Of a DNA stretch of 64,000 bases, positions 10,341-49,400 are shown one piece after another. Every line of letters starts with the position of its first letter. Within the stretch, counting starts at the first letter, position 1. Made by a program: the position numbers and the translations under genes. Below the pieces are notes generated by a model that did not search any database, was not told where the DNA came from, and saw only the letters and a program-made list of their open reading frames with translations. This DNA comes from Rhodamnia argentea (taxonomy: Eukaryota > Streptophyta > Magnoliopsida > Myrtales > Myrtaceae), in assembly GCF_020921035.1 (NCBI RefSeq), contig NC_063156.1:25468283-25532282 (forward strand), given 5' to 3'.

Positions 10341-11690
10341 GTGTAATATCTTTCTTTTGTAATTGGGAATTGTAAATAGAGAGGATGAGGGTGCTAATTA
10401 CAATGGAATTATTTGCATAATGTAGCCTTAGTTTAAGAGCGAAGTACGATAAATCTCGCATCTTGATTTCTCTTTCCCACTATTACTTTCTATTTCGTTG
10501 TGTTTGCACATTTAATCCTAACAATTGATAGCATTTATTGTCATTTTCAGCTATTTTCGAACTAGCGAATCTCGGACACTTGCTAAGAAAACCCTTTGTC
10601 TAGTGGGTATACACTCCATGTCCCCACTAGTTCCAATGTAACAAGACCAAAATGGTCTACCAGCTATGTGGATTGCGCATATTCAATTTGTTATTGTTAA
10701 TCCGATCGATTAATTTGAGACCCCATCCATCCCGAAGCACGGGAGGTCTCTTTCCATCCTCCGGTTCTCTCAATAGTGACTCGTCGTGTCGTAACGAGCT
10801 AATCGAGATAGCGATAGCTAACTTTGCCCACGGGCCGAAAAAGCCCGAGACAAGCCTTTTTAGGTCTCAACCTAAGGCCCAGTCGTTACGTTTCAACCTA
10901 CGACTGACTTTGGAGCCAGCTCCCCAACTTTCATCAACTTGACTTTTCCCTCGTCCTCCTTTGTGATCCATATGCATCGACAATCTTCAGTTCAAAGTTC
11001 TACTCATCTTATTCTTCTCCATTAAAGTACATTTATTTCCCCATTTTCATCAATCTTTTTTTCTAAGCAAACTTGCAAACTTGTCAGTCCTCTGCGATAT
11101 GAGAGGCCAACATGCAGTATAATGGCTCGATTCGATCTACTTATGCCGTACTCTTCAATAAAAAATACCCGACGTGGTGACTAAACGCTCCATACGTCGT
11201 TACCGGTAATTTAGACACTCTCATATCACAATCAAATTAAATGGTGCTTTGTTCAACTTTGGTTAAATGGTTCTACAAATTATGAACTTGTACATAAGCT
11301 ATATGTACGTAGTAATATATCAAACTATGATTATGGTAAGGACGAGAATCATGGTCGCTTGCCGGTGAAACGCACCGTTTCCAAGCCCTAACTTTCTCCA
11401 ACTCTGTCTTGCCCCTACAGCTCAAAACCTTGAAAAGGAGGATTCTGTGGGATCTGCTAAGGCAAAAAGTTAATGGGACAAAATATATTTCTCATTTATT
11501 CATATTCTCTTGAATATGGCATATGCTAAATGAATATTACGGTCTCCATTTGAAAATATGGGCGACATCATTTTTTGATAAAAGAAAAATAATCAGCCGA
11601 AGATGACAAATTATAAGCTTTCCAGAAGCATATTTTTGTACATGCCAATGCAATTTAGCTATGGTTAATTAGTAATACAACCCCATCAAC
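10341..11690. other. intergenic, no supported gene
   Basis: A 96-codon frame at 10652-10942 has no domain or family resemblance I can name. Nothing else stands out. Confidence 0.5.
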
Positions 11691-12235
11691 TTGTAAATAT
11701 TTTGATTGTCCAAAGACGAAAAGATCGCTATAACCTAACCCAAAAAAAAGAGAGCGAAAAAAGGGAATTCTCTTTTCGCTTTGTTTTTCTCCTGTCTTTA
11801 TTTTGCACGAATCTTATCGTGTCTTTTTCATTTTTCACTATCCCGTAAATATTCTGGTTTCCCAAAGACGAAAAGATCGCTTATCGCCTAGCCAAAAATG
11901 GAAAGAAGGAAAATAAAAGGAACCCCCTTTTCGTTTTAGTCTTTTGTTCTTCCCTCTTTATTTTACAAGCATCTTATCAACCCTTTTTCGCGTATCGATT
12001 CGCATCACTCTTTTTTCCACTGCCTTGTAAATATTTCGATTGTCCAAAGACGAAGAGATTGCTTATCATCTAGCCAAAAACAAAAAAAAAAACGAAAAGA
12101 AATGGAACCCTCTTTTCGCTTTATGGTTTTTTTTTTTAATCTTCTCTTTATTTTACACGCATCTTATCGCGCCTCTTTTTGCATGCCTATTCCTTTCGTT
12201 CTTTTCACGTATTTTCCCACCATCCTATTCTATCT
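11691..12235. repeat. three-copy tandem repeat, units of about 153-210 bp
   Basis: Three diverged head-to-tail units start at 11691, 11844 and 12025. Each has the same order of landmarks: GTAAATATT, then CAAAGACGAAAAGATCGC (GAAGAGATTGC in unit 3), an A-rich tract, TCTTTTCGCTTT or a close form, a TCTTTATTTT block, CATCTTATC, and a C/T-rich end. The 124-codon plus frame at 12040-12414 lies largely inside unit 3 and is best read as repeat DNA. Confidence 0.85.
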
Positions 12236-14919: not shown

Positions 14920-15618
14920 GTTCTCTGAGTAAATTAGTTTGATCGGTGTTCTTATACTTTAGTGCAACGTTTTTGTTCTGTTCTCTGGTTTTCGCGCAGA
15001 GTCAGTTTGTTCGTATGTGCGAAGCTGTTTGGTAATTGGAGTTGGCTCATTATCCGAAGGCAAAATTTGATAAATTTAAGGTGGGCACCGAGTGACTAGT
15101 TCAGTGGATCTTGGCGCATCAGCCATTCAGCTTTCTTGGGTGGTTATCTTCAGTAGGGCTTTGTGAAGGCAGATTCAAGAAGGGCCAAAGGATTGCAATT
15201 CTCACTCGGCCTTTTTCCCCTCATGTTTGCCATTTTTTGTTTTTCAGATTGGGAATCTAAGAATTAGAACCCTCATGCGACTTCTGTAGCTTTTTATCTC
15301 TTCCTTTACCATTGCTTGATGGGTTTAGTACGAAAAAGACGGGTTTTCTAGATGATAATGAGATTCACTCTGTCGACTTTGACATCGAATCCTGGGTCCG
15401 ATGGAGCCAGTTGGTGATAAAGGGTTTCTCATTGGTTCTTGATTCTAGCTTTTCATTTTGGCATCTGATGGAATTTTCTCTTTTTCTGTGTACTCTTTCC
15501 GGAACATGTGGTTTGAGGATATGTCGGCGGGGTTTAGTGTGGTGGTTTTTGTAGTATCTTGAATAAATCGATTGCAAGTGTAGAAGGAAGATAGTGTGAG
15601 GAACTGGGGGAGTTGGAA

Positions 15619-18600
15619 ATGTCGTCCAAATCGACGAACAAGACGGACTGCTCACCAAGCAGCTCGGCTCGATCGAGGCACGGGGCGCGTGTCGTTGCCC
15701 AGACACCCATTGACGCGAAGCTTCATATCGACTTTGAAGAATCCGAACAGTTGTTTGATTACTCTACTTCAGTCGACTTCAACATCTCGAGCTCCACTGG
15801 CAATGTCCCCTCATTGACCATCTCGGCGTATCTTCAGAAAATGCAGAGGGGGCAGCTGATCCAACCCTTTGGTTGCATGGTCGCTGTCGATGAACAGAAT
15901 TTCACCGTTCTCGCCTACAGTGAAAATGCCCCAGAAATGTTGGACTTGGCCCCACATGCAGTTCCTAACATTGAGCAGCAAGAAGCCCTTACGTTCGGCT
16001 TGGATGTCCGAACTCTATTTCGGTCCTCGGGTGCGGCTGCCTTGCAGAAAGCCGCAAATTTTGGGGAAGTTAATCTTCTCAATCCCATATTAGTACACTG
16101 CAGAACTTCGGGCAAGCCCTTTTATGCAATTCTTCACAGAATTGATGTGGGCTTAGTCATAGATTTGGAGCCAGTGAATCCAGCTGATGTTCCTGTGACG
16201 GCTGCGGGAGCCTTAAAGTCTTATAAGCTCGCGGCAAAGGCCATCTCTAGATTGCAATCTTTGCCGAGCTGTAGTATATCTTTGTTATGTGACGTACTCG
16301 TTAAGGAAGTCAGCGAACTGACTGGTTATGATCGTGTCATGGTGTATAAATTTCATGAGGATGAGCATGGGGAAGTTATTGCTGAGTGCTGTCGGCCTGA
16401 TCTAGAACCTTACCTGGGGTTGCATTATCCAGCTACTGATATTCCACAGGCATCAAGGTTCCTCTTCATGAAGAATAAGGTCAGGATGATATGTGACTGT
16501 TCGGCTTCACCAGTTAAAGTAAACCAAGACAAGCGATTGGCCCAGCCACTAAGTCTTTGCGGTTCCACTTTGAGATCTCCTCACGGGTGTCATGCTCAGT
16601 ACATGGCAAACATGGGTTCAATTGCTTCTCTTGTTATGTCTGTTACCATTAATGAGGATGATGAAGACACGGAAAGCAACCAACAGAAAGGAAGAAAATT
16701 ATGGGGTTTAGTAGTTTGCCACCACACAATTCCCAGGTTTGTTCCATTTCCTTTGAGGTATGCTTGTGAATTCTTGATTCAAGTTTTCGGTGTACAAATA
16801 AACAAGGAAGTTGAGTTGGCAGCTCAGTCGAGGGAGAAGCACATCTTGAGAACGCAGACTGTTCTCTGTGACATGCTCCTTAGAGATGCTCCTCTAGGTA
16901 TTGTCACTCAATCACCAAATGTTATGGATCTCGTGAAGTGTGATGGGGCTGCTCTCTACTACCAGCAGAAGTTTTGGCTGCTCGGGGTCTGTCCTACAGA
17001 GGCACAGATTAAAGAATTAGCGGATTGGCTTCTTGAGTATCATAGTGGGAGTACTGGCTTAAGTACCGATAGCCTTATGGAAGCTGGTTATCCTGGAGCT
17101 TCGGTCCTCGGTGATACAATTTGTGGGATGGCAGCCATTAAGATTACTTCAAAGGACTTCCTTTTTTGGTTCCGCTCCCACACTGCAAAAGAGATCAAAT
17201 GGGGTGGCGCGAAACATGATCCTGGTGACAGAGATGATGGTAGACGTATGCACCCCAGGTCGTCATTCAGTGCATTTTTGGAGGTTGTTAAGCACAGGAG
17301 TGTACTGTGGAAGGATGTCGAAATGGATGCTATCCATTCCTTGCAGCTGATATTGAGGGAATCTTTGCACGATGATTTGATTCAAGATTCCAAGGTTCTT
17401 GTAAATGTTCCTTCACCTGAGAACCGGGCTGTCATTGATGATAGGATACAAAAGATGGACGAATTGCGTTTTGTCACAAATGAGATGGTACGCCTCATTG
17501 AGACTGCTGCTGTCCCTATCCTGGCTGTTGATGCATCTGGTAATATCAATGGGTGGAACGACAAGGTCGCTGAAATCACAGGTTTTTCGGTTCAGCATGC
17601 AATAAACATGCCTATAGTTGATCTAGTTGCAGATGACTCGGTAGATAGAGTGCGGAAGATGCTCTCGTTGGCCTTGCAAGGTATGTGCTTCTCAAGATCT
17701 TATCAGCTAGCTTAATCCAAAATCAATAGTTATACGTGCAATTTCGATATGTAGTTTTGACTAGTTGTGGTACTCAAACTGATTGACTGCACAGTCTGAA
17801 GCTGAAAAGTTGCGTGCTCGCTGCAGAGTGAAAGAAATATTCTTCAGTTATTCATACATAATTCACTTGAATTACCGCCATATCTTTATGGTGAATAGAT
17901 TTAGCTTACTAAAATTGGTGTGATTGTTCCGACTCTTTTTTCCATGTCTGTTAAGCAAATTCGCTGATGTTCTTAGTATCAGTTCCATACTTAGCAATTG
18001 TTCTACTGTCTGATGAAATGCCGTGTTTGTCAGGAATAGACAGCTATAATAATTATCAATGTATTGCTGGATTTTCTCTATACTACATGATGGTAGATAC
18101 CTGATATGTGTATGATAAGTACATATTAATATTATTAATAATCTTAACCCTTTGGAATCTTGACATAATTGTCTTAATGTTCTTGTCTGACTTTCGTTCT
18201 TCCTGTCTTGCATGTCTTCTGATTGGTTGAGGACTAATACGTGGCAGGTGTTGAAGAGCAGAATGTCGAAATCAAGCTAAAAAAGAATGGCATTCAAGAT
18301 GACAAAAGTCCTCTGGTATTGGTAGTTAATGCATGCTGTAGCCGTGATGCAAAGGAAAACGTGGTGGGAATATGCTTCGTTGGACAGGACATTACTGGAC
18401 AAAAGATGATTGTGGACAAATATACCCGTATCCAAGGTGATTATGTTGGAATTGTGCGGAATCCATCTGCACTTATTCCTCCAATTTTTTTGACCGATGA
18501 GTATGGACGGTGCTTGGAATGGAACGATGCAATGCAAAAACTCTCCGGTTTAAACAGGGAAGAAGTTGTTGACAGAATGCTACTTGGCGAGGTTTTCACG

Positions 18601-20719
18601 GTTAACAACTTTGGTTGCCGTCTAAAAGATCATGACACTTTAACCAAACTGAGGATCTTGTTGAATGGTGTAATTGCAGGACAGGATGGGGATAAACTTC
18701 TGTTTGGGTTCTTTGATCAGCATGGTAGGTATATTGAGGCACTAATTTCTGCAAACAAAAGAACAGACACCGAGGGAAAGATCACTGGGGTATTGTGCTT
18801 TCTTCATGTCACCAGTCCAGAGCTTCAGTATGCCATGCAGGTTCAGATGATGTCAGAGCAAGCTGCCGCTAATAGCCTTAAGAAATTGGCTTATATCCGC
18901 CAAGAGATTAGAAAACCTCTCAATGGGATAATATGCGTGCAAAATCTGATGGGGGCCTCTGATTTAAGCAATGAGCAGAGTGAACTTTTGAAGACGAGTA
19001 CTTTGTGTCGGGAGCAGCTAGAGAAGATTGTTAATGACACTGACATTCAAAGCATAGAAGACTGGTATGTTGTCCCAATGTGATGGTATACCTGTAAATA
19101 TGTATTCATCGAGGATGTAAAATTGGTTTTCGTCTTTGCTCTCTTCTTCTCCTTTGGGAGGCCAAGTGTCTTACTTCTTATGGAAAATTTCTGATTAAGT
19201 TGTTTTTCGTGGAACATCTTATGGGCACCTGTCTAAATCGTGGGAAACTTCTTAGAATTTGGAATTGCTATAAGGAAAACTGGTCTATTTTCTTTTTATT
19301 TTTAGATTTTTCTTGGCTTCGCCCCATGAAAGTTTACTTTTCCTGAATGAGTTACATGATTTCCTTAACTTTTAACTTTATTAATGAACTTTTCCTTGTT
19401 TGTCAATTATGGTGCCAATATGACAGTTATGGGGAACTGAACATGGGCGAGTTCAACCTTGAGCAAACGCTACGAGTTGTCATAAATCAAGCAATGATAC
19501 TGAGCCAAGAACGTGCGGTACAGGTCGTTCTTGATTTGCCTGTTGAAGTGTCGACCGTGCATTTATATGGTGATAAGTTGAGATTGCAGCAAGTTCTTTC
19601 CAATTTTCTGACAAATGTGATCCTTTTCACCCCCAACAATGAAGCATCATCTGTGATCCTGAGGGCAATTCCAAGAATGGAGCAGATAGGGAAGAAGATG
19701 CACATAGTCCACCTCGAATTTCGGTAATTTGCACATTCATAATATGATCTCAATGTTACCATCTTTCCCTGTATATTGCACCCATATATGCTTACAGAGC
19801 TCAAATTTGGAAAATTGTAACACTTGTGCTGGAATGTCATATTAGCTTTTTGAGCAGAATAACGTGTCTTCTAAATATGGTTAAGTTTGTGACTGATCTA
19901 CCTCCCTCGATGATTAATAGCTTTCATCATATAGTTGCATGAATATGTAGAAGTTCCAAAACGATGAGATAAGTTAGTCAAATCGCTCTATGTACTTTCC
20001 CTCCTTGGGTCTAGACATTGATGAGCATTTATTTGATGCTGCATTGGTTTCTCTGGTGGCATAAATATTGATCTTGTTGCTACTTTCTGAAAGTAAGGAA
20101 ACCATCACCGTTAATGCATCATCTTCATTGCACGGTACTTACAGTGATGATGAGGTAGCCTGTCATTGCACTTCTAAGTATTGTAGGTGCAGTTCATTTA
20201 CTTTTTTAGTAACTCGACCATTGCTCCAACACATTTATAGTTGCTTTAATGCTCTGATACATGCCCTGAGAACTGTTTCATCTTGTAGTTGTCAAAAGTT
20301 TCTAAAAGAATCTAAATGAAACGATAGTGCTGGTATTTTTGAAGACTGAATGGTCATGAAACATCAATGTGTTTATCAATAATATTTAGAAATGGTCATA
20401 GGTGATGTGGTTGTAAAACATCTGATCCCAGTTAGATGAAAATGCTTGATCTTGGCTGTTTCGGTGGTCAAATGCATGCTACAAATTCAGCACATTGAAC
20501 TGTGATTTCAGGATTACACATCCAGCACCTGGAATTCCAGAGAAATTGATTAACGAGATGTTTCACCACAGCCAAGGTGTGTCGAGGGAAGGCCTTGGAC
20601 TGTACATCAGCCAGAAGCTCGTAAAGATAATGAACGGAAGTGCTCAATATCTTAGGGAGGCAGAGAGGTCGTCCTTCATTATTCTGGTGGAATTTCCGCT
20701 TGTTGATCACTCCAGTTGA
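15619..20719 (+). CDS. PHYC: phytochrome C photoreceptor
   Basis: Four coding exons, 15619-17680, 18248-19064, 19427-19723 and 20512-20719, splice in frame to 1127 aa, normal for phyC. The frame opens at a TTG six bases earlier; ATG 15619 gives [10 protein letters not shown], typical of phyC rather than phyA, B or E. Order: N-terminal extension, PAS (about 70-185), GAF with bilin attachment Cys324 in [13 protein letters not shown] domain, two PAS repeats across the exon 1/2 junction, and a histidine-kinase-related module. The H-box region reads [12 protein letters not shown], so the phospho-accepting His is absent, as in plant phytochromes generally. The protein would be a red/far-red receptor that moves between cytosol and nucleus and acts in photomorphogenesis and flowering. 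No stop or frameshift was seen within the exons. Confidence 0.97.
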
Positions 20720-22224: not shown

Positions 22225-22860
22225 GAATGCATCATGATGCGTCGGGAGACCGTCGCATTTTGGACTCAGGGAAGCTTTCTCCGACATTTTTGTGGAACAT
22301 ACTGGATATAGAGTTAAGCATTTGCCTTTTCATTTAATCTTTTCATTATCCTTTTCTCGAGTTGAAGGAGAACGATGCTTGAATTCAACTGGTCTGAGTT
22401 TACGGTATAGTCCATCGTAGACAGCATCGTACTCAGACGGGGTTTATTTCAAGCTTTGTATGTAAGTGTATGTACATGTAGTGCGTTTGACCAAGATATG
22501 GTTTCCCGACAGAGGTTGTGTCTCGATTCTATGCATCACACCGAGTCCCCGGACCAACATTGTGTCGACTGTTCAGACACTGCGCGTTCCACTTGGTCAC
22601 GGATTGTGAACGATCAGCTCGGTTTGGTTTATATCCTTGATACATGTTATCTTGCAAAGGTTTAATATCTATGTTGAGCTTCTTGTTTACCTATACGCTT
22701 GATGCGAACCGTCTGAAATAGACCCGGAGGATGCCAAGTTATTGGTTTGGTGGGATTCGTGATTTGATTGAATTGCCTTGGCTTTCCTTCGAATTGAGCC
22801 AAATTGTAACCCGGTTTCCCCTTACTCCAATAGCGAGTTTCGGACAGGCCAATCATGTTT
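22225..22860. repeat. dispersed repeat family R, copy 1
   Basis: It shares ordered blocks with copies at 28080-28515 and 28615-29200: GCGTCGGGAGAC; TATGTAAGTGTATGTAC; GACAGAGG..TGTCTCGATT; a CACG/CGCGTTCCAC block; GATTGTGAA; GCTCGGTTTGGT; TATATCC; CTTCTTGTTTAC; GCTTGATGCGAACCG; GGAGGATG; TTATTGGTTTGG. Frames inside differ between copies, so coding is unlikely. The class is unknown. Confidence 0.7.
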
Positions 22861-25455: not shown

Positions 25456-26852
25456 GGGTTTGTTTGGCGGTGATTCTGTTTCCCAAAAATGATTCTGATC
25501 AAAATCACTTTTTTGATTCATTCCCCATGGATGATTTTTTGAGAATCAAAATGCGTTTGGTAACTGTTTAAAATTTTTGTTCCTAGAACAAAAACGCGTT
25601 TGGTAGCTGCACAAAATTTTCGTTCCCAATTTTTCATTTAAATCAAATAATTATATAATCACATTTGATGGCAAAGAGGGAAAATAATCAAATAGTGATT
25701 ATGGAGCAAAAAAAAAAAAAGTAACAAAATTTCCGTTCCCAATTTGTTTGTTGATTTTTCATGAGTATGCAATCGTTTATATTGTTTGAAAAGTAATTCG
25801 TATTACATTTACAGAATTTGTCTAAATCATTTGTTTGTTATTATTTCTCGTGACTTTTAGATTGATTACCAAAAAAAAAAAAAAATGAAAGAAAAGCTCC
25901 TCATTGTGCAACCGCCTATAGTTTTGCACTCTTGTAATTACACATCGTACAAGCTTACAAGACCTGCAACCCAACTACATTGATTTTTTCTTCACCCGAC
26001 TCGACAAACTTTTTTGTGCGGCTCGAAAAATGGAGAAAAAATGGAGATTTAGTTGAAGATGCGGAGGGTTGGGTCCAATCTTTAATAAAAAAAAAAACAT
26101 AAAAATTGAAAAAACATAATAGGAAATAAAAAATAAAACTTAATTAGAATAAAAAATAAAATAGCTAAAAATTCGAAAAAAAAATGCGTATTAGAGGTCC
26201 CTTAATATAAAAAATAAATTAGATTTAAAAATTTTCTAAAAACTAATTTTTTAAATATAAATATAAATTTAACTTGAATTTAAAAATAGGCTTAAAATTT
26301 TACAAAAAAAAAAACAATATTTTAAGAAAAAGGGGGGGGGGGAAGCGGTGACGAGAATTTTTTTTCAAAATTTTAGCTATTTTCAATCTAAATTTTTTTA
26401 ATTATTTTTAAATTATTAAATTAAAAATCTAAATATTTTTTATTTCCCCATTTCTTAAAATTTTAAATTTTTTTATTAAATTTTCCTTAAATAAAATTTT
26501 TAATTTAAGAAAATTAGTTTTTAGAAAATTTTAAAATTGAATTTTAATTTATTTTAATTTATTTAAAGTTGAAAATCCACGTGGACTTTTTTTTTAAATA
26601 GTACCATTTTATATTAAAATTTTAATTATAAGTATGAGAGATAAGTCATAAGTATATTGTGTAAAAAAGTGATCCTCAAAAGTGTTCCAAAACACCGTAA
26701 TCATCTTTTTTTTGTTTCTGAAACGTGGTCCAAAAGTGTTCCAGCAACCTTAATCAAAATCATTTTTTTTTTTCCATTACCAAACATGTTTTTGATCCTT
26801 TTTTGTTTCTAGGAACAGAAACAGAGGATCGGAATCACCGCCAAACAGACCC
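25456..26852. mobile_element. PIF/Harbinger (Tourist-like) non-autonomous element
   Basis: Both ends carry the inverted repeat GGGTYTGTTTGGCGGTGATT, and both are flanked by TAA (25453-25455 and 26853-26855), the target duplication expected for PIF/Harbinger elements. Length is 1397 bp. The interior is extremely AT-rich with poly(A) and poly(T) runs, and no frame long enough for a transposase or Myb-like partner exists. It is therefore a large deletion derivative or MITE that needs proteins supplied elsewhere. Confidence 0.8.
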
Positions 26853-26989: not shown

Positions 26990-27086
26990 TGTCACATTTT
27001 TTGCTTCTTTCAAGCAAGCACCCACTATTTCACATGCGAGCAACCAAATAGTGGGTGCTTGCTTGAAAGAAGCAAAAAATATGACA
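26990..27086. repeat. near-perfect 41-bp inverted repeat (hairpin)
   Basis: The left arm 26990-27030 and right arm 27046-27086 are complementary over 41 positions with one mismatch (26995), separated by a 15-nt loop. The arm core is GCTTCTTTCAAGCAAGCACC. The hairpin abuts the hAT-like element that starts at 27096. It could be a very small MITE, a foldback element or a small-RNA precursor. No promoter evidence is seen. Confidence 0.9.
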
Positions 27087-28079: not shown

Positions 28080-28515
28080 TCGACGAGTTCATTTCGAGCC
28101 TTTTTTTTTTATTTTTATATGTAGGTGTATACACATTATGAATCTTTGACCGATATATTGTTTCCGGACAAAGGCTGCTTCTTGATTTTACGCATCAAAG
28201 CAAATCGCGAATCAACATTTTGACGGATATCCAGACAGTGCACGTTCCACGGTGCCACGGATTGGTAATAACTAGCTCGGTTTGGTGTATATCCACGGTA
28301 TACATCACATTTGCGATGGTTTAGCATGCATGTCGAACTTCTTGTTTACGTATAGGCTTGGTGTGAACCGGTTTGAGGCCGGACCGGAGGATGTCGGAGT
28401 TATTGGTTTGGTTAGGGTTGCGATTCCATTGACTTGGCCGAGATTAAGTCTTTCCTCTGGACCAGTATGGATTTCCGCTACTCCCATGCAGAGTTGGGAA
28501 GAAGCCAATCACTAA
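28080..28515. repeat. dispersed repeat family R, copy 2
   Basis: It contains the same ordered blocks as 22225-22860, from TATGTAGGTGTATAC, through GTTTCCGGACAAAGGCTG, GTGCACGTTCCAC, AGCTCGGTTTGGTGTATATCC and CTTCTTGTTTACGTATAGGC, to GGAGGATGTCGGAGTTATTG. There is no coding signal. Confidence 0.7.
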
Positions 28516-28614
28516 CTACGAACGAAGAGAACTCAAACTATACCCTCGAGACAAAAGCTATATCCAAATATGTTCTACCTAATAAATAGAAGCCACATCA
28601 TAAGATTACCGATA

Positions 28615-29200
28615 TTGCCTTGCGTCGGGAGACAGTCACGCTTTCGACTCGGAGAAGCATTCTCTAATGGGTTTTGTTAACACAACGGTCTTTCAATAAC
28701 TATGAGAGCAACAGCATGTTGTGTGAATCACAAATTCTTGAAGAGGCGGACTCCGCAAGAATTACTTGTTATTTTTTTATTTATTTTTTGAGGCTCGGAA
28801 CTGTTAATCTCACAGTGAATTAGGGATAACGACGTAATCACTTATTATAAGAGTGGATATGAGGGTTACGCGTTATATCCCCTATATGGCGGCATTTGGC
28901 TGTATATAGAGGGCTTACAAGTGTGGTTCCAAATAGGAAGTATCATTTGTTTCCGTCATTGTGGAAGCATCGTATTCGACGAGGTTTATTTCCGTACTTC
29001 GTATGTAAGTGTATGTACACGATAGTTCTACCGAGATATTGTTTTCCGACAGAGGCTATGTCTCGATTTCACGGATCGAAGCGCAATCGGAACCGACACC
29101 ATATCGCATATTCAAGCGCCGCACGCTCCACCGTGTCTCCGATTGTGAATGATCTAATTCGATTCGGTGTATATTCATGGTACAACCACATCATCGGTTC
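28615..29200. repeat. dispersed repeat family R, copy 3
   Basis: It begins with TTGCGTCGGGAGACAGTC, like 22235 onward in copy 1, and continues with CGTATGTAAGTGTATGTAC, TTTTCCGACAGAGGCTATG, TCTCGATTTCACGGAT, CGATTGTGAATGATC and GGTGTATATTCATGGTA. Copies 2 and 3 follow each other in the same orientation just upstream of the peroxidase locus. Confidence 0.65.
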
Positions 29201-29565: not shown

Positions 29566-30710
29566 ATGGGCGCGACGGGCCACGGAGGCTCTCGAGCTTC
29601 GGCATTAGTCTCTTGCGCGATCGTAATGTTCCTCTCCGTGTCCGCGGTGGCTTCTGTTCCGTGCAAGCCGTCGACTTTGAAGGTGGGGTTCTACAAATCG
29701 ACTGTCCACAGGTGGAGGTGATCGTGAGGACTGCCGTGAATAAGGCCGTCTCTCGCAACCCCGGCATCGGAGCGGGTCTCGTTAGGTTGCTCTTCCATGA
29801 TTGTTTTGTTAGGGTAATGTCACAGATAATCCTGCAATGTCGAACCAATTACACACACGCATTGCATTCGTATGGAAAGATATTGCTTAGACTCGGTCTA
29901 TCCATAAGCGTAATGTCACAGTAGACTGTTAACTAGTAACCGAGTTAAACTGTGATTGCAGGGCTCCGACGCTTCTCTGCTCTTAAATTCCAGCCCGGGA
30001 AATACGGCGGAGCGAGACCATTTTGTTAGCCGTAGCTTACGAGGATTTGAGGTAATTGATGAAGCCCACAGACGGTATCGTGTGCGGACATCCTCGCCTT
30101 TGCCGCTCGCGACAGCGCATATCAGCTAGGAGGGATTCGCTACGCGGTCCCTGCTGGCCGCTGCGATGGCCTCATCTCAAGCCAGGACGACATCTTTCAG
30201 AACCTGCCGGTCCCTTCCTCCAACACCAAGCAGCTGGTGGACCTTTTCGCTAGCAAAGGGCTGTCCGCGGACGAGATGGTGACGCTCTCGGGAGCGCACT
30301 CGATTGGCTTCTCACATTGCTCCAAGTTCTCAGACCGCCTCTACGATTTTGACAACGTAACCGGTGCCAGTGATCCGGCGTTGGATGCCAAGTACGCGGA
30401 TTTCCTCCGGACCATTTGCCTGAGGCCAGGGAGTGGAAACTCGGGCAGTGATCCTCTGGTGGCACTGGACTCGACGCCGACTCGTTTGGACAACAAGTAT
30501 TATCAGGATCTGCAGAATCCCCGTGGGGTATTAACTTCGGACCAGACCTTGTTCTCGAGCTCTGCAACAGCGGACATGGTCACCGACAATGCTCGCGACA
30601 GTAAGGCGTGGAGTCTCAAGTTCGCAAAGGCCATGGTGCGCATGGGCCCCATCGAGGTCCTCACAGGCTCACAAGATGAGATCAGAAGACAGTGCAGCTC
30701 TGTGAATTAA
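29566..30710 (+). pseudogene. class III secretory peroxidase, frameshifted
   Basis: Exon 1 is 29566-29813 and exon 2 is 29962-30710. ATG 29566 starts a good signal peptide (hydrophobic [18 protein letters not shown]), followed by LKVGFYKST. The frame is then lost by one base near 29701; the expected continuation CPQVEVIV is in the next frame. It runs through the distal-site [10 protein letters not shown] into exon 2 (GSDASLLLNSS). A second lesion near 30063-30080 removes the segment that normally joins VIDEA to CADI and shifts the frame again. The rest is open: AARDSAYQLGG, the proximal haem His in [12 protein letters not shown], and a normal C-terminus. The usually invariant Cys of GCDAS is Ser. 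A full family member has about 325 aa and is secreted to oxidise phenolics with H2O2. The closest resemblance is to peroxidase 5-like proteins. Confidence 0.85.
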
Positions 30711-38189: not shown

Positions 38190-38915
38190 GTGAATCCCAC
38201 CCGCGCTACGAAGGCTTTGTAAAAACATGGTATATTCTCGACGTATTTGAATAGACGGAGTATTCTCCGAGATCTATAAGATGCGAATCATCGTTTTCTC
38301 CAGAAGAGCACACACAAAGGCAGTCGCTTTTAGTCGGGGGGACGGAATTCGGCTATTGTGAGATGATCCAACGTCGATCATCGATGCCTTTTGATCCTAC
38401 AAATTGAGAGTAGTAATTTGAAGTTAAATTCGACACTATATATCATGTTCCGTCTCCTACAAGTACGTGCACGATGCATACATGACTGCGCACATCGAAA
38501 TGACTTTGCTTCTTCAACCTTGGCATGCGATGGCATTGGGCATTATGTAATGAGACATCGCGGAAGCATCTGTTCACAAAGTTTTTTGGCCTCTTTTCGG
38601 TGGGTTGGGGTTCCACAGGGATCGATGCATACTTGGAAGGAGAGCCAAAGCATGTTGGTGGGTTAAAATGGTCACTTTTGGAGGATCCGAAGCTGGAGCG
38701 GAGTTTTGCCGACAGTCGAGCAGCATCATAGCTCGGGTATAGCTAGGTTTTAGATTGGTCTGCTCGAGCAAGTAACGTTTCTTTTTTATGCAGCGGCGGT
38801 TTGTCTGGGCTCCCAACTATTTTACATCATGTGCACACTTTTGAGGTGAGGCTTTTAATCAGATCCACCAATCACCCTTCTCCTTCCGGATGGAAATCAT
38901 GACCAGGCTTGCTTG
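38190..38915. repeat. duplicated segment, copy A left part
   Basis: From GTGAATCCCAC at 38190 to the retrotransposon at 38916 this matches 44831 to about 45560 with scattered substitutions and small indels. It corresponds to the 3' flank of the PP2C gene. Copy A continues after the retrotransposon at 44153. Confidence 0.9.
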
Positions 38916-39529
38916 TGTTGGGATTGGGATTCTCCTTAATTAGTTGGGTAAATCAAAACATTAAAGCTTTGTTGACTACGTAATCCCAATGCAACAACCT
39001 CGCACGAGAAAAATAGATTCTTGTGGCCCCATATATTAAAAAAATGCTTATCATCTTCATAAATCCACATTTATTAATTGGTGAAGTTTCTAGAGTATGG
39101 AAGAGAGGTCCCATTGCCATTTATAAATAGAGGATGAAGAGATAGGTTGAAGCAATCCCTTCCGCATCAAAGAAAGAAAGCGTCGGTAAGATCGACAGAT
39201 TCCACAAGTCATTCGACAAGAGAGATCCTCCGAGAGAGAGAGCGAGAAAGCCACCATTGAGTGAAGAGTTTGAGAGAGTATGATCCTCTTGAACTAGTGT
39301 ATTCCACCACAAAAGTGAGGGTGATCCACCAAATTCGGTGAGGAAAAATTGTTGTAATCCTACTATTATAGTAGAAGATATTTGTTGTTTTTCCCTTTCG
39401 TTTTCGAGGGATTTTCCACGTAAAATTCGTGTGTCTTAGCCTCTACATTACTTTATGTTTTCTTTTCCATCTTGATCAAGCAAAGTGGGAAAAAGGATTC
39501 GCTTCCGCATACTCGTCTTTTTCCCAACA
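38916..39529 (+). repeat. 5' LTR of the copia element (614 bp)
   Basis: It starts TGTTGGGATTGGG and ends TTCCCAACA, so the ends are TGTTGG/CCAACA. A TATA-like TTTATAAATAG lies at about 39119-39129, with downstream sequence that would be the R/U5 region. By eye, about two dozen mismatches to the 3' LTR occur in the first 260 bp, mostly transitions. Confidence 0.95.
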
Positions 39530-39530
39530 G

Positions 39531-39542
39531 TGGTATCGGAGT
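39531..39542 (+). other. primer-binding site (initiator Met tRNA type)
   Basis: TGGTATCGGAGT follows the 5' LTR after one base. The canonical site complementary to plant initiator tRNA-Met begins TGGTATCAGAGC, so this one carries two changes in the first twelve bases. Confidence 0.8.
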
Positions 39543-39570
39543 TTGGTTCAAGGGCATTGTGTGTTTCAAG

Positions 39571-42500
39571 ATGGAGGCCACCGTCACCCATGATGGTGAT
39601 ATGTTCAAACTTACAGCGGAGAACTATTCCTATTGGAAGCCCATGATGGAGGACCACCTCTATTGCAAGGACTTGTACGAGCCAATCCTAAATGAGGAGC
39701 AGCCGGAAGAGAAGAGCGACAAAGAGTGGGAACTCTTGAATCGTAAAGCGTTCGCCATGATCCGCAAGTACATTGATAAAAGTTTGTTCGAGCATGTGTC
39801 GACATACACTAATACTCACGAATTATAGACGAAACTAGAGTCCATGATTCAAAAGAAGACGTCTCGCAATAAAGCTCACCTAGTGCGACGATTGGTAAAG
39901 CTGGAGTACAAGGATGGTCAAAGTATGATCAAGCACTTAAACAATTTTAAGGGGCTCGTAAATCAATTGACGAAGATTGAGATGAAGATTGATGATGAGT
40001 TGCAAGCCTTTCTACTCCTCGGTTCCCTACTAGAAAGTTGGGACACGTTGGTTGTTACTCTAAGTAACTTAGCTCCGGAAGGGAAGCTCTCCATGGATGC
40101 CGTAGCTGATAGCCTTCTTAATGAAGAGGCTAGAAGAAGAGAACGAGGGACGTCCAACCAATATGAAGCCAATATCGTCGACATTCATGGGAAAAGAGAG
40201 ACCCCGTGGAAGAAGTAAAAGCCGCGATCATGACAAGTTTCGTGGGTGGTCTAAATCTCGCTCCAAAGTAACTTGTTATTATTGCGGGAAGTCGAGGTCA
40301 TAAGAAACCAGAGTGCCGGATTCTTAAGAGAGATCAAAAGTCCGACAATGTCAAGCCAGGCCAAGTTGACCCAAAGAAGGAGGGGAAGAGCACTACGATC
40401 GTCGCCGCAACCGAAGTTGATGATATCTTCCTAATTGGAGAAGCCAACTACCTCAATGTTGCCGACAATGATAGTTCGTGGATCGTTGACTCGGGTGCAT
40501 CCTTTCATGTCACTCCACATGAAAGCTTCTTTTCATCCTACCATAGTGGTGACTTTGGTACGGTCAAGATGGGAAACCGCGTCACCAGCAAAATTGTTGG
40601 AATTAGTGAAGTCACTTTGGTGACCAACGCGGGATATAAGTTAGTACTAAAGGAGGTGGGACATGTTCCAAATATGCACCTCAACCTTATCTCGACTGGG
40701 AAGCTAAACAATGTTGGGATGGTGAATCACTTTGGTGCGGGCAAATGGAAACTCGCCAAAGGGAGTATGGTCATCGCCCGAGGAAACAAAGAAGGCTCCT
40801 TGTACGTCATGCAAGGCAGAGTATGCAATGGAGATGCTAATGTTGCCCACGATGACTCAAGCGTGGAGCTATGGCACAAGAGGCTTGGTCATATGAGCAA
40901 GAAAGGCTTACGGATCCTCGCCAAGAAAGAACTAATCTCCGACGTAAAAGGCCAATTGTTGGAGCCTTGCACTCACCGGTTAACCGACAAACAACGCCGA
41001 GTGTCTTTCCGGAGATCAGATCGACCCGGAAGGAGAAGGTATGTTCTTGATTCGGTTCACACATATGTCCGTTCGATGATAGAGAAATCCCTTGGTGGTG
41101 CATACTACTCTATCATCTTTATCGACGATCACTCTAGAAAAGTATGGGTGTCTTTGTTGAGCACGAAAGATCAAGTTCTCCAAGCGTTCAAGGAGTACCA
41201 TGCCATGGTAGAACGGGAAGACAGGGAGGAAATTAAAGTGCGTGCGAGCCGATAATGGTGGTGAGTACCGTGGTCCATTCGAAGCATCTTGCAGGTCACA
41301 TGGTATTAAATTGGAGAAGACGCCACCAAAGACGGCTCGGCTAAATGGTGTAGCCGAGAGGATGAACCGAACCATTGAGGAAAGAGTCTTATGCATGTTA
41401 TCTCATGCCAAACTACCAAAATCATTTTGGGGTGAGACCGTAAAGACTGCAGTTAATGTAATCAACTTGTCACCATCAAAACCTTTGGATGCAGAAATCC
41501 CAAAGGAAGTTTGGACAAGAAAGAAGGCATCACACGATCATCCGAAAGTGTTCGGTTGCCGAGCGTTCGTTCATATTCCTAAAGACGAACGATCTAAGCT
41601 TGATGCAAAGACCAAGGAGTGTATTTACCTTGGTTCGCCAAGAGATGAGTTTGGTTATCGACTTTGGGATCCTATCAAAAGGAGGATTGTGAGAAGTCGC
41701 GATGTTGTATTTTTTGAAGATCAAACTCTTGAAGACATCAAGAAGCCCAAGATCAGGGTCGTTACCCATTCCAATCTCGTATTATGCTCTAAGGACATTG
41801 ATGATTCAGGGGGAGAAACATCGCAGAACAACAATGAAGAAGTTGGTGATGGCAATGTCAAACCACCAATAGAGGAGCTTGTCGAAACGACAAAGACAAA
41901 GCCGATCCAACTAGAGCCACGAGTTCAACCTCAATTGAGGCAATCCACCAGAATCAGGCGTCCCTCAACTATATATCCTACTGATGATTATACATTTCTT
42001 GCAGAAGAGGGGGAGCCTCGGTGCTATGAAGAAGTCGTGACCTGCGACGAGAAAGAATAATGGGTGAAAGCCATACAAGAGGAGATGCAGTCCTTACATG
42101 AGAATCATACCTATGACCTAGTTGAGTTATCGAAGGGAAGGCGAGTGTTGAAAAATAAATGGATGTGTAGACTCAAAGTTGATGAAAACAGCTCGCAGCC
42201 AAGATACAAAGCTCGAATTATTATCAAAGGATGTAACCGGAAGAAGGGCATCGATTTTGATGAGATATTTTCTCTGGTGGTAAAGATGTCATCGATTCGA
42301 GTTGTCCTTGGTATAGCCACCACCCTAAACTTGAAGATTGAACAACTCTATGTGAAGACTGCATTTCTTCATGGAGACCTAGAGGAAGAAACCTACATGG
42401 AGCAACCCGAGGGTTTCAAAGCTTTAGGTAAAGAACATTTGATGTGTCAACTCAAAAGGAGCCTCCATGGTCTAAAACAAGCACCAAGACAGTAGTACAA

Positions 42501-43495
42501 GAAGTTCGATTCGTTCATGGCGCAACATGACTTCAAGAAGACTGACGCCGATCATTGTGTGTTTATTAAGAGGTATGCCAATGGTGATTTCATCATTTTT
42601 CTACTTTATGTCGATGATATGCTGATAGTCGGGCAAGACTCAAAGAAAATCGATGCCCTTAAGAAGGTCTTGAGCCGGTTTTTTGCTATGAGAGATATAT
42701 CGAGAAGATTCTCAAGAGATTTGATATGCACAAGGCCAAACCAGTAAGTACTCCTCTTGTTGGATATTTCAAATTAAGTAAGAAATAGAGTTCATCGACT
42801 AAGAAAGAGAAAGAAGAAATGAACAAAGTGCCATATTCATCGGCGATTAGCGGCCTCATGTATGCTATGATATGCATCGGGCCCGACATTGCTCATGTTG
42901 TCGGTGTTGTGAGTCGATATCTTTCAAATCTAGGAAAGGAGCATTGGGCTGCTGTCAAATTGATATTTCGATATCTTCAGGGTACATTGAAAAGGTGTTT
43001 GTGTTTCGGCAAAGAAGAACTCGTGTTGGAAGGATTCACGGATGCAGATTTAGGTGGTGATGATGATTCGAGAAAATCAACGTCAAGGTATTTAACTATC
43101 TTTGCAGAGGGAGCTATGTCTTGGCAATCTAAGCTCCAAAAATGCGTTGCCTTGTCTACCACCGAAGCCGAATATATTGCAGCCACAGAAGCATGTAAAG
43201 AAATATTGTGGATGAAAAACTTCTTGCTTGAGTTGGTTCATAAGCAAGAAAAGTATGTATTGAGATGTGATAATCAAAGTGCCATACACTTGGCGAAAAA
43301 TTCAGCCTATCACTCTCAATCAAAACATATCGATATGCGTTATCATTGGATTCGGGATATAATAGAGGGAAGCATATACAACTCGACAAAGTTCACACCG
43401 ACAAGAATTGGTCCGACATGATGACCAAGGTTATTCCATCGAAGAAGTTCGATGAGTGTTGCGAAGGTGCCGATGTAGTAACCCCCTCTAATTAA
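39571..43495 (+). pseudogene. degenerate Gag-Pol polyprotein of the copia element
   Basis: ATG at 39571. Gag runs to about 40200, with an in-frame TAG at 39826. The CCHC zinc knuckle near 40273 is disrupted by a frameshift. Protease follows (WIVDSGAS, about 40480), then the GAG-pre-integrase HxxLGH-like region (about 40870), and the integrase core, broken near 41240 by a frameshift before RADNGGEY. The reverse transcriptase has a stop at 42058 before it and another at 42493; its catalytic YVDD is at about 42608-42619. A further shift lies near 42700. RNase H includes STTEAEYIAATEAC and a normal end near 43495. The element would need proteins from intact relatives. Confidence 0.9.
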
Positions 43496-43500
43496 GTCGA

Positions 43501-43513
43501 ATAGGGGGAGATT
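43501..43513 (+). other. polypurine tract
   Basis: A purine-rich run with GGGGGAGA lies just upstream of the 3' LTR, the usual plus-strand primer position. Confidence 0.8.
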
Positions 43514-43826
43514 TGTTGGGATTGGGATTCTCCTTAATTAGTTGGGTGAATCAAAGCATTAAAGCTTTGTTGACTACGTAATCCCAATACAACAACCTCA
43601 CACGGGAAAAATAGATTCTTGTGGCTCCATGTATTGGAAAGATGCTTGTCATCTTCGTAAATCCACCTTTATTAATTGGTGAAGATTCTAGAGCATGGAA
43701 GAGAGGTCCCATGACCATCTATAAATAGGGGATGAAGAGATGTATTAAAGCAATCCTTTCCGCATCAAAGAAAGAAAGCGTCGGTAAGATCGACAGATTC
43801 CACAAGTCATTCGACAAGATAGATCC

Positions 43827-43871
<45 letters not shown>

Positions 43872-44152
43872 AAGCCACCATTGTGTGAAGAGTTCGAGAG
43901 AATATTATCGTCTTGAACTAGTGTATTCCACCACAAAAGTGAGGGTGATCCACCAAATTCGATGAGAAAATATTATTGTAATCCTACTATTATAGTGGAA
44001 GATATTTGTGGTTTTTCCTCTCGTTTTCGAGGGGTTTTCAACGTAAAATTCGTGTGTCTTCGCCTCTACATTACTTTATGTTTTCTTTCCCATCTTGATC
44101 ACGCAAAGTGGGAAAAAGGATTTGCTTCCGCATACCCGTCTTTTTCCCAACA
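43514..44152 (+). repeat. 3' LTR of the copia element (639 bp)
   Basis: It has the same ends as the 5' LTR. It is about 25 bp longer, mostly because a GA run at about 43830-43868 has expanded compared with the short GA run near 39232-39244 in the 5' LTR. Confidence 0.95.
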
Positions 44153-44791
44153 GTTTGTAATTGGAAAATTTTCAATGGAATGAAGACCATCGATGGCCAT
44201 GTGGATCTCTGATCCCAGATGTGATGATCAGATCTAGTGTCCACCGTTTCCGGAGCGCAAAGCTATAAATGATTTTGTTAGGGACTGCACTATATACAAC
44301 ACCACCGCCGTAAACGATGAGAACATCAAAAAGGTCATCCATGGACAAGACGACGACCCAAAACTCAGCTGTGCTACACCATCGAAGCGTCTCCCTCGTT
44401 ACAGATTATGTACATGAAGCAACGGACCGAAATTGTAAGACTCGACGAACCCCACTTGAAGCAAGCCGAAGCAACAGTTGCAATTCCAAGATCCCTCCTG
44501 GACGGATGGAAGTTTCGCAAAAGGAATTGTTTATCCACGATCAATGGCCACCGCTGCCATCCAACTGGTTCCTCAAGCTGCAGAGCGCCTCGGCCGAGAG
44601 GCTGCAGCACCTCAACCTCAGTGGCCGAGGCGACGGCTGCTCCCAATGATCGAGGGGCGTGAAGCACACGACAATCACCGTGAGGTTGTCGGATGTGTTG
44701 AGGCGCAGCGCCTCCTTAACGAGATCCCTCGCGGACTGTTTTGGGTCGTCGTGCTGGCGGAGCTCACGACGCACGACGGCGTGCTGACTGG
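44153..44791. repeat. duplicated segment, copy A right part
   Basis: It matches about 45565-46224: the 3' untranslated flank and the 3' part of the last PP2C exon. Similarity stops sharply at ...GTGCTGACTGG (44791 here, 46224 in copy B). The 39 bases 44792-44830 between the two copies match neither. Confidence 0.9.
44541..44791 (-). pseudogene. PP2C last-exon fragment
   Basis: On the minus strand it encodes about 83 residues equivalent to the C-terminal end of the neighbouring PP2C, including [13 protein letters not shown] with the metal-binding Asp, up to the same stop. The frame is still open, with a 6-nt in-frame deletion and several substitutions (for example RGLRRH to RELRQH). Exons 1-3 and the first half of exon 4 are absent, so no phosphatase can be made. 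It lies in copy A of the tandem duplication. Confidence 0.9.
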
Positions 44792-44830
44792 GCGTAAAAG
44801 CCTCACCTCAAAGGAAGAAACAGAGAAATG

Positions 44831-46224
44831 GTGAATCCCACTCGCGCTACGAAGGCTCTGTAAAAACATGGTATATTCTCGATGTACTTGAATAAACGGA
44901 GTATTCTCTAGGACCTATAAGACATGAATTGTCGTTTTCGCCAAAAGAGCACATACAAAGGCGGTCGCTTTTAGTCGGGGGGGCCAGTGTTCTGCTATTG
45001 TGAGATGATCCAACGTCGATCATCGATGCCTTTTTATCCTACAAATCGAGAGTAACAATTTGAAGCTGAATTCGATACTATACATCATGTTCCGTCTCCT
45101 ACAAGTACGTGCATGATGCATACATGACTGCCCGCATCGAATGACCGAACGATCTTGCTTCTTCAACCTTGGCATGCCTTGTCATTGGGCATTATATAAT
45201 GAGACATCGCAGAAGCATCTGTTCAGAGTTTTTTGGCCTCTTTTTGGTGGGTTGGGTTTCCACATGGATCGATGCATAATTGGAAGGAGAGCCAAAGCAT
45301 GTTAGTGGGTAAAAAGGTCACTTTTGGAGGATCCAAAGCTGGAGCGGAGTTTTACCGACAGTCGAGCAGCATCATAGCTTGGGTATAGCTAGGTTTCAGA
45401 TTGGTCTGCTCGAGCAAGTGACGTTTCCTTTTTATGTAGCGGCGGTTTGTCCGGGCTCCCCACTATTTTAAATCATGTGCACACTTTTGAGGTGAGGCTT
45501 TTGATCAGATCCGCCAATCACCCTTCTCCTCCTTCCGGATGGAAATCATGACCAAGCTTGTCTGTAATTGGAAAATTTTCAATGGAATGAGGAACATCGA
45601 TGGCCATGTGGATCTCTGATCCCAGATGTGATGATCGGATCTAGTAACCACCGTTTCCGGAGCGCAAAGCTATAAATGATTTTATTACGGACTGCAATAT
45701 ATACAACACCACCGCCGAAAACAATGAGAACATCAAAAAGGTCATCCATGGACAAGACGACCCAAAACTCAGTTGTGCTACACCATCGAAGCGGGTCTCC
45801 CTCGTTACAGATTATGTACGCGAAGCAACGGACCAAAGTTGTAAGACTCGACGAAATTGCAACCAGCTCTTCTTCGGGGCCAACCCCACTTGAAGCAAGC
45901 CGAAGCAACAGTTGCAATTCCAAGATCCCTCCGGGGAAGTTTCACAGAAGGAATCGTTTATCCACGATCAATGGCCGCCGCTGCCATCCAACAGGTTCCT
46001 CAAGCTGCAGAGCGCCTCGGCCGAGAGGCTGCAGCACCTCAACCTACGTGGCCGAGGCGACGGCTGCTCCCGATGATCGAGGGGTGTGAAGCATACGACG
46101 ATCACCGTGAGGTTGTCGGATGTGTTGAGGCGCAGCGCCTCCTTAACGAGATCCCTCGCGGACTGTTCTGGGTCGTCGTGCCGGCGGAGCCCACGGCGCA
46201 CGACATTGACAGCGTGCTGACTGG
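44831..46224. repeat. duplicated segment, copy B (uninterrupted)
   Basis: A 1394-bp unit homologous to 38190-38915 plus 44153-44791. It includes the end of the functional PP2C gene and its 3' flank. At about 45556-45566 it has the empty site that corresponds to the retrotransposon insertion in copy A. Confidence 0.9.
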
Positions 46225-48718
46225 ACATCACGTCCCAAATCCCATCACAACCTATTATGAGGAATTCGTCGTCCTCCGTTAGCAGAGCTTGCCGGAACTC
46301 TGGCTCGGAAATCAGAGGCGAGGGAGAGCCCCGAGAGAACTTCATGTCCCAGTCGCCCAAGGCTCGAGTGACCGATAAGACGCCATTCAGGTATCCATCG
46401 TCAACAAAACCGCCCAGTTCTTTGACTCGCCTCTGTTCTGAAGGGTATATTGGTTTATGGTCTTGGGACATGTCGATGGCCTCGCCTCTCCGGCAGAGAA
46501 CTGCACGACAGTCACCAGCATTGGCCACCATGAGAAGCCTGAGGAGTTTTTAAAAGAAAGTGGAAACCATTAAATGAGAAAAGCAAGGTGCATCAAAGCA
46601 TTGAACAAGTGCATCATTTTGCCTAGCGGCAGATGGCACCAAAAAGTAATCACGAATAATGTCATCAGTTTTCGTCTAAGAAACCACATTAGAAGTCAAT
46701 TAGAAGAGGGGTGCTATTGGATTTTCATTTTGTCCAACTTATTTGTCGAAGAATGCTTCCAAGGTGGCCTACTGGAGAAGCGTACTGTGATGAATCCAAA
46801 TTTACCTTCCAAGTATCAAAGCAGTGAGAGCTGTAGTGCCAGAAGAACTACTGACGCTAGCATCATCCGCCAAAGCACGGTCCGCCAGAAGAAATGCTTT
46901 TCGGAGAGAATTCTCAACCTCACCCAAGTATGAGTCGTCAACTTCAGACGATTGAGGAAATTTGGCATCATCAAAGAAGACTCTGATAACATTTTTTCTG
47001 ATGAAGGCTGATGCTTCGGCTCCTCCGTGACCATCAAATACCTGTGTCATGTCATCGCTTTCAGTCAACATCATAAACAACGAAAACGAATCACTTGAGA
47101 TGCAACTTGAAGATTAAGAGTTCAATGTATTAATTACCCCATAAAAAGCACTTGGTTTAGGAAACCGGTAGGGTGATCCTAAATGCGTGGACAAATCATC
47201 CACGCAAATGTGCTCATCTTCCATAAATCTCCGGGGTCCAATGTCTGCAAAGCTACCAGAACGAATACTAGGCACAAACTGCGGAACAATTGACTCCAGA
47301 CACGCATCAGGAGTACTATCTGCCGGTGTGATTTCCTGAAATGAAACGAAATCAAGATGAAATTCCTTCCACAAACTCACACTATTACAAAGACTCGAAC
47401 CAAGGAAGAACTGACAATCGATTGACAAAGAAGATTGACTTGCCATAAAGAATAGCCAATGTATTAATTAGAAGCGAATCTTTCTTGGTTATGGAATCTT
47501 AAAATGTATTCACGACGAAAAAAGGTTTGATGCTGTTCATTAATTTTTTGCCGCCCTCAGAAATTCTCTCTCAGTTTTTCCTTGCTTGCAATTTGCAACA
47601 TAATCCTTTCAGATATAAGGGTCGTCTTCCATCTCTTTTGTCTGAATAATTGAGATTTGCAATTTAATGAACAAGAAGCAGCAGTAAAAATCAATTCTCC
47701 ACCTTAGTTTCTCCTCATGTACTGGAAAAGTACATTTATTGTCCCCGAGAACATTAGAAGTAGCATACATAGAAAATCCGAATGGCCAAACTTAAGCAAG
47801 CATTGTAAACAACAGATTTGCCGAGACCAATGGTCGTGTCAATCATGATTCAATCTCAGCATTCCCAGAAACTCCAAGGCAACATCATCATACAGTTTAC
47901 ACCAAAAATCGAAGTAGGGCCAAATTCAAGCATCCAATGCCACATCCCTTTAGTAATCAGCCTTTTGTATGTTTCTAGCATTATGCATGCATGGCAAAAA
48001 CTAGCAAATTTCGGGACAGGATCATCCGGGCTTACATCAGAAAGCTTTCAAATTCTCCACATCGTCCTCGAAACAACTAGTCGTACGGTAGCATTTGCTA
48101 CTAACAAACATAGAGGAGGATGGAGGATGAACAGCAATCCTTTTTCAAGCCCCAATAATGACCACATTCAGTTCTCGCAAGAAGATGTAAGACCTAACAC
48201 CAGACCTTAACACAACGGAGAAAATCATCATGATTCTTAAACTATGGCAGGTTTCATAAACTGCAACTTGCAATTTCCACTTTCCCTTTCCTTTCTTCTT
48301 ATTCTTTTGGCGGGGGACGAGGGTATAAAAGACGTTAATGATAATCATCAATTACAGAGTATCTCGATTACGTAAAGCTCTGTCTCGAAGACGAAACAAA
48401 AAACTCCATAAATAATCATTCAGCAGCATCTCAACCCCCCACTTAAGACATCCCCCAGAAGATCAATCGAACCGGAATTAATCAATTCGCACCTACAGAA
48501 CCGAAACTTGTTAAAAAAAAAAAAAAACTTACCACTTGAGAAGCGGGAACATCGGCGGAGACGGCCTCCGACACACGAACCCTCTCGACGGGAGGATGCG
48601 AGAGAGGCGAGGAGATGGTGACCAGCTCTTCAATCGGGCTCCCTCTCACGGCCGTGAAATACTGCACTTCCGGTGCAGGCACGCCCTGTTGACACACAAC
48701 CTCTGTTTCAGCTCCCAT
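45968..48718 (-). CDS. protein phosphatase 2C
   Basis: Four exons on the minus strand, 48533-48718, 47138-47335, 46806-47041 and 45968-46538, give 396 aa starting [21 protein letters not shown]. It is a plant PP2C (PPM family, Mg2+/Mn2+-dependent Ser/Thr phosphatase). Motifs: RRFMEDEH with Glu101-Asp102, VFDGHGG (129-135) with Asp131, [10 protein letters not shown] (211-220), ALGDWDMK (266-273), GCDGIWDV with Asp305, and NTSDNLTV with Asp348. All metal-coordinating acidic residues are present and the splice sites are good, so it looks functional. The N-terminal 60 residues are a non-catalytic extension. The resemblance is to the small group of PP2Cs such as Arabidopsis At3g17250 and At1g48040, distinct from the ABA co-receptor clade. 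The first intron is 1.2 kb. Its 3' end is duplicated downstream. Confidence 0.93.
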
Positions 48719-49400
48719 ACTTTTGTCTCCTCAGAATCTCAGCACCAAGCAAAACACGAAGCTCGCGACCAGCTCGAAAGACTTCCCCGCGCTTTCCGTC
48801 AGTAATTTCTCCCGGAAACTCGATTGCTATGGCAAAATCCCAGCTCAAACGAAGATACTGACTCGCAGAAACTGGATTGCTATCGGCCAAAAGTAAGCTA
48901 GAGCCTGACGATGAAGCTCGCCGGTCACGCACTGTCTTCTCGCACCTTCTCTGAACTTCTTCTTCTTCTTCTTCTTCTTCTTTTCCTCTCCGTCTGGGTC
49001 TTCGAATCCGAAAACGATCCAAAATTTCGACCGAGGCGTCCGGGAGCGGCGACTTATACGGACCGGCAACCGTTGGCTAGGGGTCAGAGAGGGTGACACG
49101 TGTGAGGCTGAGAGCCGTGCGATTGATTTCGCTCCCCACACGCTTCTTTGCGCTTTGTGGGCCCCCCCCCCGTGTTGACATGTGACTTTTCTCGGGTTGA
49201 CGCGCAAAACGGCTTCGAGCTTCGAATCGCCCGCCGAATTGACGGAAACGCCCTCGGCTTGCCTTGTGGGAATGAGCTGTCTTTAGTTGACTCACAATTT
49301 TTGCTTCCGGTTTACATTGCCCATAAAAATACATTCCAGCCCTCAAATTTATAATTTGACCCAAAAAAAAAAAAAAAAAGACCATCAAATTCATGAAAGA
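48719..49400 (-). promoter_or_regulatory. leader and promoter region of the PP2C gene
   Basis: Upstream of the ATG on the minus strand lies a purine-rich (GAA)n tract, seen as (CTT)n at about 48957-48982 on the plus strand, typical of plant 5' leaders. Further upstream the DNA is GC-richer until about 49270. Long frames here are compositional shadows. No clear TATA box was chosen. Confidence 0.4.

Follow-up and report, generated by a model that had tools for sequence, protein, structure and literature searches.

The window, the whole 64,000-nucleotide stretch of Rhodamnia argentea DNA that was analysed (C7:25468283-25532282), was compared with itself and with the assembly (347 Mb in 74 contigs). 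It holds two tandem copies, A and B, of a unit of about 1.4 kb that forms the 3' end of a PP2C gene, and an LTR retrotransposon lies inside copy A. Table 1 lists the features of the locus.

Table 1. Features of the duplicated PP2C locus, with positions in the window
Feature	Position	Strand	Description
Copy A, left arm	38190..38915	.	3' flank of the PP2C unit; ends with target repeat GCTTG, 38911-38915
5' LTR	38916..39529	+	614 bp, TGTTGGG...CCCAACA
Element interior	39530..43513	+	Decayed gag, pre-integrase, integrase C-terminal and reverse transcriptase pieces in several frames
3' LTR	43514..44152	+	639 bp; 26 extra bp in GA-repeat relative to 5' LTR
Copy A, right arm	44153..44791	.	Target repeat GTTTG, 44153-44157, then 3' flank and last PP2C codons
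Joint filler between A and B	44792..44830	.	39 bp
Copy B	44831..46224	.	Empty target GTCTG, 45560-45564; 3' flank and last codons of the longer PP2C gene
PP2C open piece, C-terminal domain part	45968..46549	-	PF00481, E 1.7e-48, profile 114-254 of 255
PP2C open piece, earlier domain part, outside the duplication	46802..47113	-	PF00481, E 9.1e-08, profile 30-111

The duplicated end of the PP2C gene

The PP2C gene is on the minus strand with copy B as its 3' end, and its stop codon in B ends at 45968. PF00481 is present in two open pieces of this gene, and the piece with the C-terminal part of the domain crosses the right boundary of the duplicated unit. No Pfam family was matched in 47114-47467. 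The right arm of copy A contains the last 82 whole PP2C codons and the stop, also on the minus strand, with the stop ending at 44541. The frame is still open in A and is 6 bp shorter than in B, but the rest of the gene is absent, and this fragment alone matches no Pfam family.

Once the 5,237-bp element is set aside, copy B is colinear with copy A from end to end. In the self-comparison of the window, 38190-38911 matches 44831-45560 at 89.9% and 44153-44777 matches 45560-46204 at 88.9%, both with E printed as 0.0. Global alignment of A (38190-38915 joined to 44158-44791) with B gives 96 substitutions in 1,347 ungapped sites (73 transitions and 23 transversions) and 10 indels. The initial annotation had described these tandem copies and taken the unit to be the 3' end of a PP2C gene; the PF00481 matches in the gene attached to copy B confirm the identity, and the self-comparison and the global alignment show its coordinates to be correct almost to the base. 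The left arm is more diverged between the copies than the right arm (62/718 versus 32/624, p 0.013), also when compared with the noncoding right part alone (19/373, p 0.038), and constraint near the gene end in B could explain the difference. No conversion tract between A and B was apparent, the longest identical run of 67 being as expected (permutation p 0.46).

Among the matches listed for copy B in the assembly are only B itself, both arms of A, and a 304-bp stretch (81%) of a PP2C paralog on the same contig. This paralog (L004), 3.4 Mb away, is similar to the PP2C gene over several blocks within 45912-48740. Copy B gave a single match there among those listed, so that at this sensitivity the end of the paralog showed no tandem copy. 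Of the 13 exon differences between A and B, 12 fall where the paralog aligned, and it polarises 10 of them, 7 as derived in A and 3 in B, the other 2 being without polarity. The 6-bp exon gap is polarised as a loss in A. This polarity fits with A as the unconstrained copy, with numbers too few to carry much weight.

The doubled sequence could also be imagined as an assembly artefact, in which A and B are alleles or misjoined haplotypes, since 7% allelic divergence is conceivable in a very diverse outcrosser. However, uncollapsed haplotypes normally double long stretches, whereas here the doubling is tandem and limited to 1.4 kb; the flanks are distinct, and the patched 39-bp joint lies within a 30-Mb contig. 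We therefore consider an artefact highly improbable.

Other repeats are found elsewhere in the window. There is a tandem duplication at 10068-10340 (two copies of about 138 bp, 85.5%), and 11690-12168 contains three tandem copies that match over 99-142 bp at 76-81%. The stretches 22413-22751 and 28114-29068, which are 74-81% alike and lie near a peroxidase piece at 30063-30707, are possibly tandem peroxidase genes. A near-perfect inverted repeat at 26990-27086 has 41-bp arms that are 98% complementary with 15 bp between them, and is adjoined by AT-rich inverted repeats at 26132-26544. Phytochrome-type domains occur in two open pieces at 15595-19080, with PAS_2, GAF, PHY and PAS followed by PAS and HisKA.

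The copia element and its LTR family

The element occupies 38916-44152 between the two arms of A. Directly after its 5' LTR is TGGTATCGGAG, which we take to be a primer-binding-like site, and directly before its 3' LTR is the purine-rich GGGGGAGATT, presumably the purine tract. The open pieces, scanned separately, gave Pfam matches to copia gag (PF14223), Pol_BBD, gag_pre-integrs, the integrase SH3-like domain and RVT_2, the last in two pieces (42061-42495 and 42496-42747). Both gag_pre-integrs (in 40272-41255) and SH3_retrovirus (in 41212-42060) are upstream of RVT_2. No rve core was matched in the pieces scanned, and the open pieces 42789-43421 and 43274-43495 matched no Pfam family at E 0.001, so that they gave no RNase H match. 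Because the open pieces are in different frames or separated by stops, and because the second RVT_2 match stops short, at position 198 in a profile of 244, the element is decayed. The order of gag, pre-integrase, integrase C-terminal domain and RVT_2, the TG...CA LTRs and the 5-bp target repeats are those of Ty1/copia elements, from which it differs in its stops, frame changes and truncated RVT_2 match and in the missing rve core and RNase H matches. It is thus a decayed Ty1/copia retrotransposon. Its Pfam domains, two direct LTRs and target repeats (one mismatch in 5 bp) bear out the initial annotation, which had recognised a 5.2-kb copia element in copy A only.

The assembly contains at least 30 matches to the 5' LTR, and a tree of 25 rows was built after the 5 shortest matches (L030-L034) were dropped. 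In this tree the two LTRs of the element form a group with support 95/85, and the branch that joins them is 0.0056 long. In plain identity, however, the 3' LTR differs from its own 5' LTR by 7.5% and is closer to at least 4 others (6.4% to C11b_5p, 7.0% to C11b_3p, 7.1% to C2 and 7.4% to C11a_5p). By substitutions, the nearest row of the 5' LTR is its own partner, and the others are at 8.0% or more; in BLAST it is 92% identical to the C11 copies versus 89% to its partner, the latter value being low because of the 26-bp gap in the GA-repeat. Since the joining branch is short and the 3' LTR is nearer to other copies, the pair makes a fair clock, though not a clean one. Partial exchange of an LTR with another element is possible. 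Recombination between LTRs of different elements was considered and not adopted, as the tree keeps this pair together. With 4 outgroups, relative-rate tests gave no significant difference between the two LTRs (p 0.14-0.65), and the sole check for a recombinant stretch gave a longest identical run of 62 (permutation p 0.27).

Among 10 LTR pairs of the family, which include two LTRs 1.4 kb apart on C5 counted as a pair, K ranges from 0.022 to 0.084, and the value of this element (0.080) is the third highest. Other members are also flanked by 5-bp repeats, for example aaacg/aaacg on C4 and ggaag/ggaag on C5, as read from the flanks. Two members appear to be solo LTRs (L022, C2:8351379-8351956, and L017, C8:27761993-27762607), and their flanks, read by eye, are ctctt/ctctt on C2 and gattc/aattc, with one mismatch, on C8.

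Another two members, C11d and C11e (L010 and L013; C11:2673400 and C11:2704723), have in common a duplicated segment made up of the 3' LTR and 1.5 kb of right flank, the flanks being 97.3% alike. There the duplication includes the LTR, which is the opposite case to the PP2C locus. The two differ at 27/617 sites in the LTR versus 38/1497 in the flank (p 0.037), which hints that LTRs evolve faster; this would favour duplication first at the PP2C locus. We rejected this rate control as proof, since it is a single case and the flank contains a P450-like open frame of 215 aa (read from the sequence), without which the contrast becomes 27/617 versus 24/847 (p 0.11).

The empty site and the joint

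At the place that corresponds to the insertion in A, copy B has a single uninterrupted target, with A and B colinear across it; the initial annotation had placed an unoccupied target near 45556-45566, in agreement with this. Compared with copy B, the 5' LTR gave no match and five interior pieces of the element just three, of 11-14 bases (E 0.14-0.47). The 3' LTR and the rest of the element have no match in B at E 1e-5 in the self-comparison of the whole window. A remnant of the element or of its target duplication in B, which the initial annotation had named as evidence against its reading, was therefore not detected. Among the papers searched there was no direct precedent for an empty site in a duplicated copy, although one may well have been published elsewhere.

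When an LTR element is lost, the usual trace is a solo LTR flanked by two target repeats, and copy B has neither the solo LTR nor the paired repeats. This argues against a history in which the element inserted before the duplication, both copies were filled, and B then lost its element, either precisely or through conversion by an empty allele. The LTR-LTR point estimate, slightly above that of A-B (see below), is in its favour; all the same, such a history is hardly credible.

The likeness of A and B ends at 38190/44831 and at 44791/46224 (ends read by eye), with none past the unit ends in the self-comparison. In the filler between the copies, which the initial annotation had left out, 18 of the 39 bp (44795-44812) are exactly the reverse complement of 38840-38857 in copy A; as read from the A-B alignment, B departs from this 18-bp sequence only at its last base. 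When the filler was shuffled 20,000 times and compared with the unit, the longest match was 15, and none of 2,000 shuffles reached 18 against the surrounding 13 kb. When natural 39-mers from elsewhere in the window were compared with the same 13 kb, 7/2,000 matched 18 or more. The last 18 bp of the filler found a best match of 12 of 18 in nearby sequence, and 53/60 shuffles did better.

Because of the 18-bp inverted match, the sequence of the joint suggests end joining with template switching and not unequal crossing-over between homologous sequences. Synthesis-dependent end joining in plants is linked to polymerase theta. The joint resembles alternative (synthesis-dependent) end joining, as outlined in PMC7407515, in that its insert is templated in inverted orientation from nearby sequence; it differs in that no priming microhomology is assigned here and no template was identified for about half of the filler. 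Tandem duplications of 10-1000 bp in rice have been ascribed to double-strand-break repair (Vaughn and Bennetzen 2014, as summarised in PMC7407515). These are likewise tandem with extra sequence of nearby origin according to that summary, but the unit here, at 1.4 kb, is above their size range.

Divergence of the two pairs and order of events

The K2P divergence is 0.0757 (0.061-0.092) for A-B and 0.0798 (0.058-0.105) for LTR-LTR. Their difference is -0.004, with a 95% range of -0.033 to +0.023, and A-B is the smaller value in 61% of bootstraps. Fisher tests of A-B versus LTR gave p 0.78 for all sites, 1.0 for the noncoding part and 0.59 for transversions. Without CpG sites, 5.2% of A-B sites and 6.7% of LTR sites differ (p 0.22), which widens the gap in the direction of the point estimates. 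The left arm alone gives 8.6% versus 7.5% (p 0.48), which is in the predicted direction but is one among several partitions examined: A-B is below LTR-LTR for all sites and also when CpG sites are left out, just above it for the noncoding part, and above it for the left arm. The two divergences are indistinguishable, being equal within error. An A-B divergence equal to or above that of the LTRs, as the initial annotation expected, is compatible with these values within error, although the point estimates lie slightly the opposite way; an A-B divergence clearly smaller than LTR-LTR, which would have spoken against it, was not found. In simulations, an LTR divergence of 0.046 versus 0.076 (a 39% deficit) was detected 64% of the time and one of 0.036 was detected 91% of the time, so that the comparison could reveal only a large gap.

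The claim that the order of events is readable by comparing the two clocks is not supported, both because the divergences are equal within error and because two histories predict the same relation. In the second history, the element inserted on one haplotype first, and the duplication then joined the filled copy (A) to the empty one (B) through inter-homolog exchange or end joining. Since filled and empty haplotypes would also have split before the insertion, both histories need A-B to equal or exceed LTR-LTR, and the clocks cannot tell them apart. The haplotype join would give the same anatomy and allows near-equal divergences, but it requires homologs to be joined at non-homologous ends, and a local templated patch with no similarity beyond the unit ends would be simpler to obtain within a chromatid or between sisters. 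We regard it as unlikely.

For illustration, both divergences would correspond to about 8 My at a slow rate of 5e-9, which we chose, and to about 3 My at the grass rate of 1.3e-8 per site per year quoted in PMC7251063. In the account of nested elements given there, about one fourth have an LTR divergence above that of their host element, which is the same kind of clock failure as at the PP2C locus.

The history that we consider probable is an end-joining tandem duplication, followed by the copia insertion into A and then decay. The order rests on the clean empty site in B and not on the clocks, and duplication first is favoured by simplicity and by the nature of the joint; the order proposed in the initial annotation is thus probably right, and its proof by clocks is no proof. 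The 1.4-kb stretch, with the last PP2C codons and about 1.1 kb downstream, would have been duplicated in tandem through error-prone end joining, and the joint would have been patched with the 39 bp, 18 bp of which were copied inverted from inside the unit. From this match we infer template switching of the polymerase-theta kind as a likely source of the patch. The longer gene would have retained copy B as its 3' end, leaving copy A as a downstream fragment without the rest of the gene. The Ty1/copia element would then have entered copy A by ordinary integrase action, producing the 5-bp target repeat, and would have decayed after integration. All the components are of known kinds. That the near-equal divergences reflect one episode, with duplication and insertion within a short time, is very unlikely; the cause would perhaps have been that the newly repaired and freshly duplicated stretch offered an unusually open target.

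Judged by the power figures, paired clocks of 1.35 kb and 0.61 kb cannot resolve the order of events separated by less than about half their age, and the join of a filled and an empty haplotype remains compatible with them, which makes the locus useful as a caution. With the empty site beside the filled site and the duplication joint preserved, it is also a tidy teaching case.
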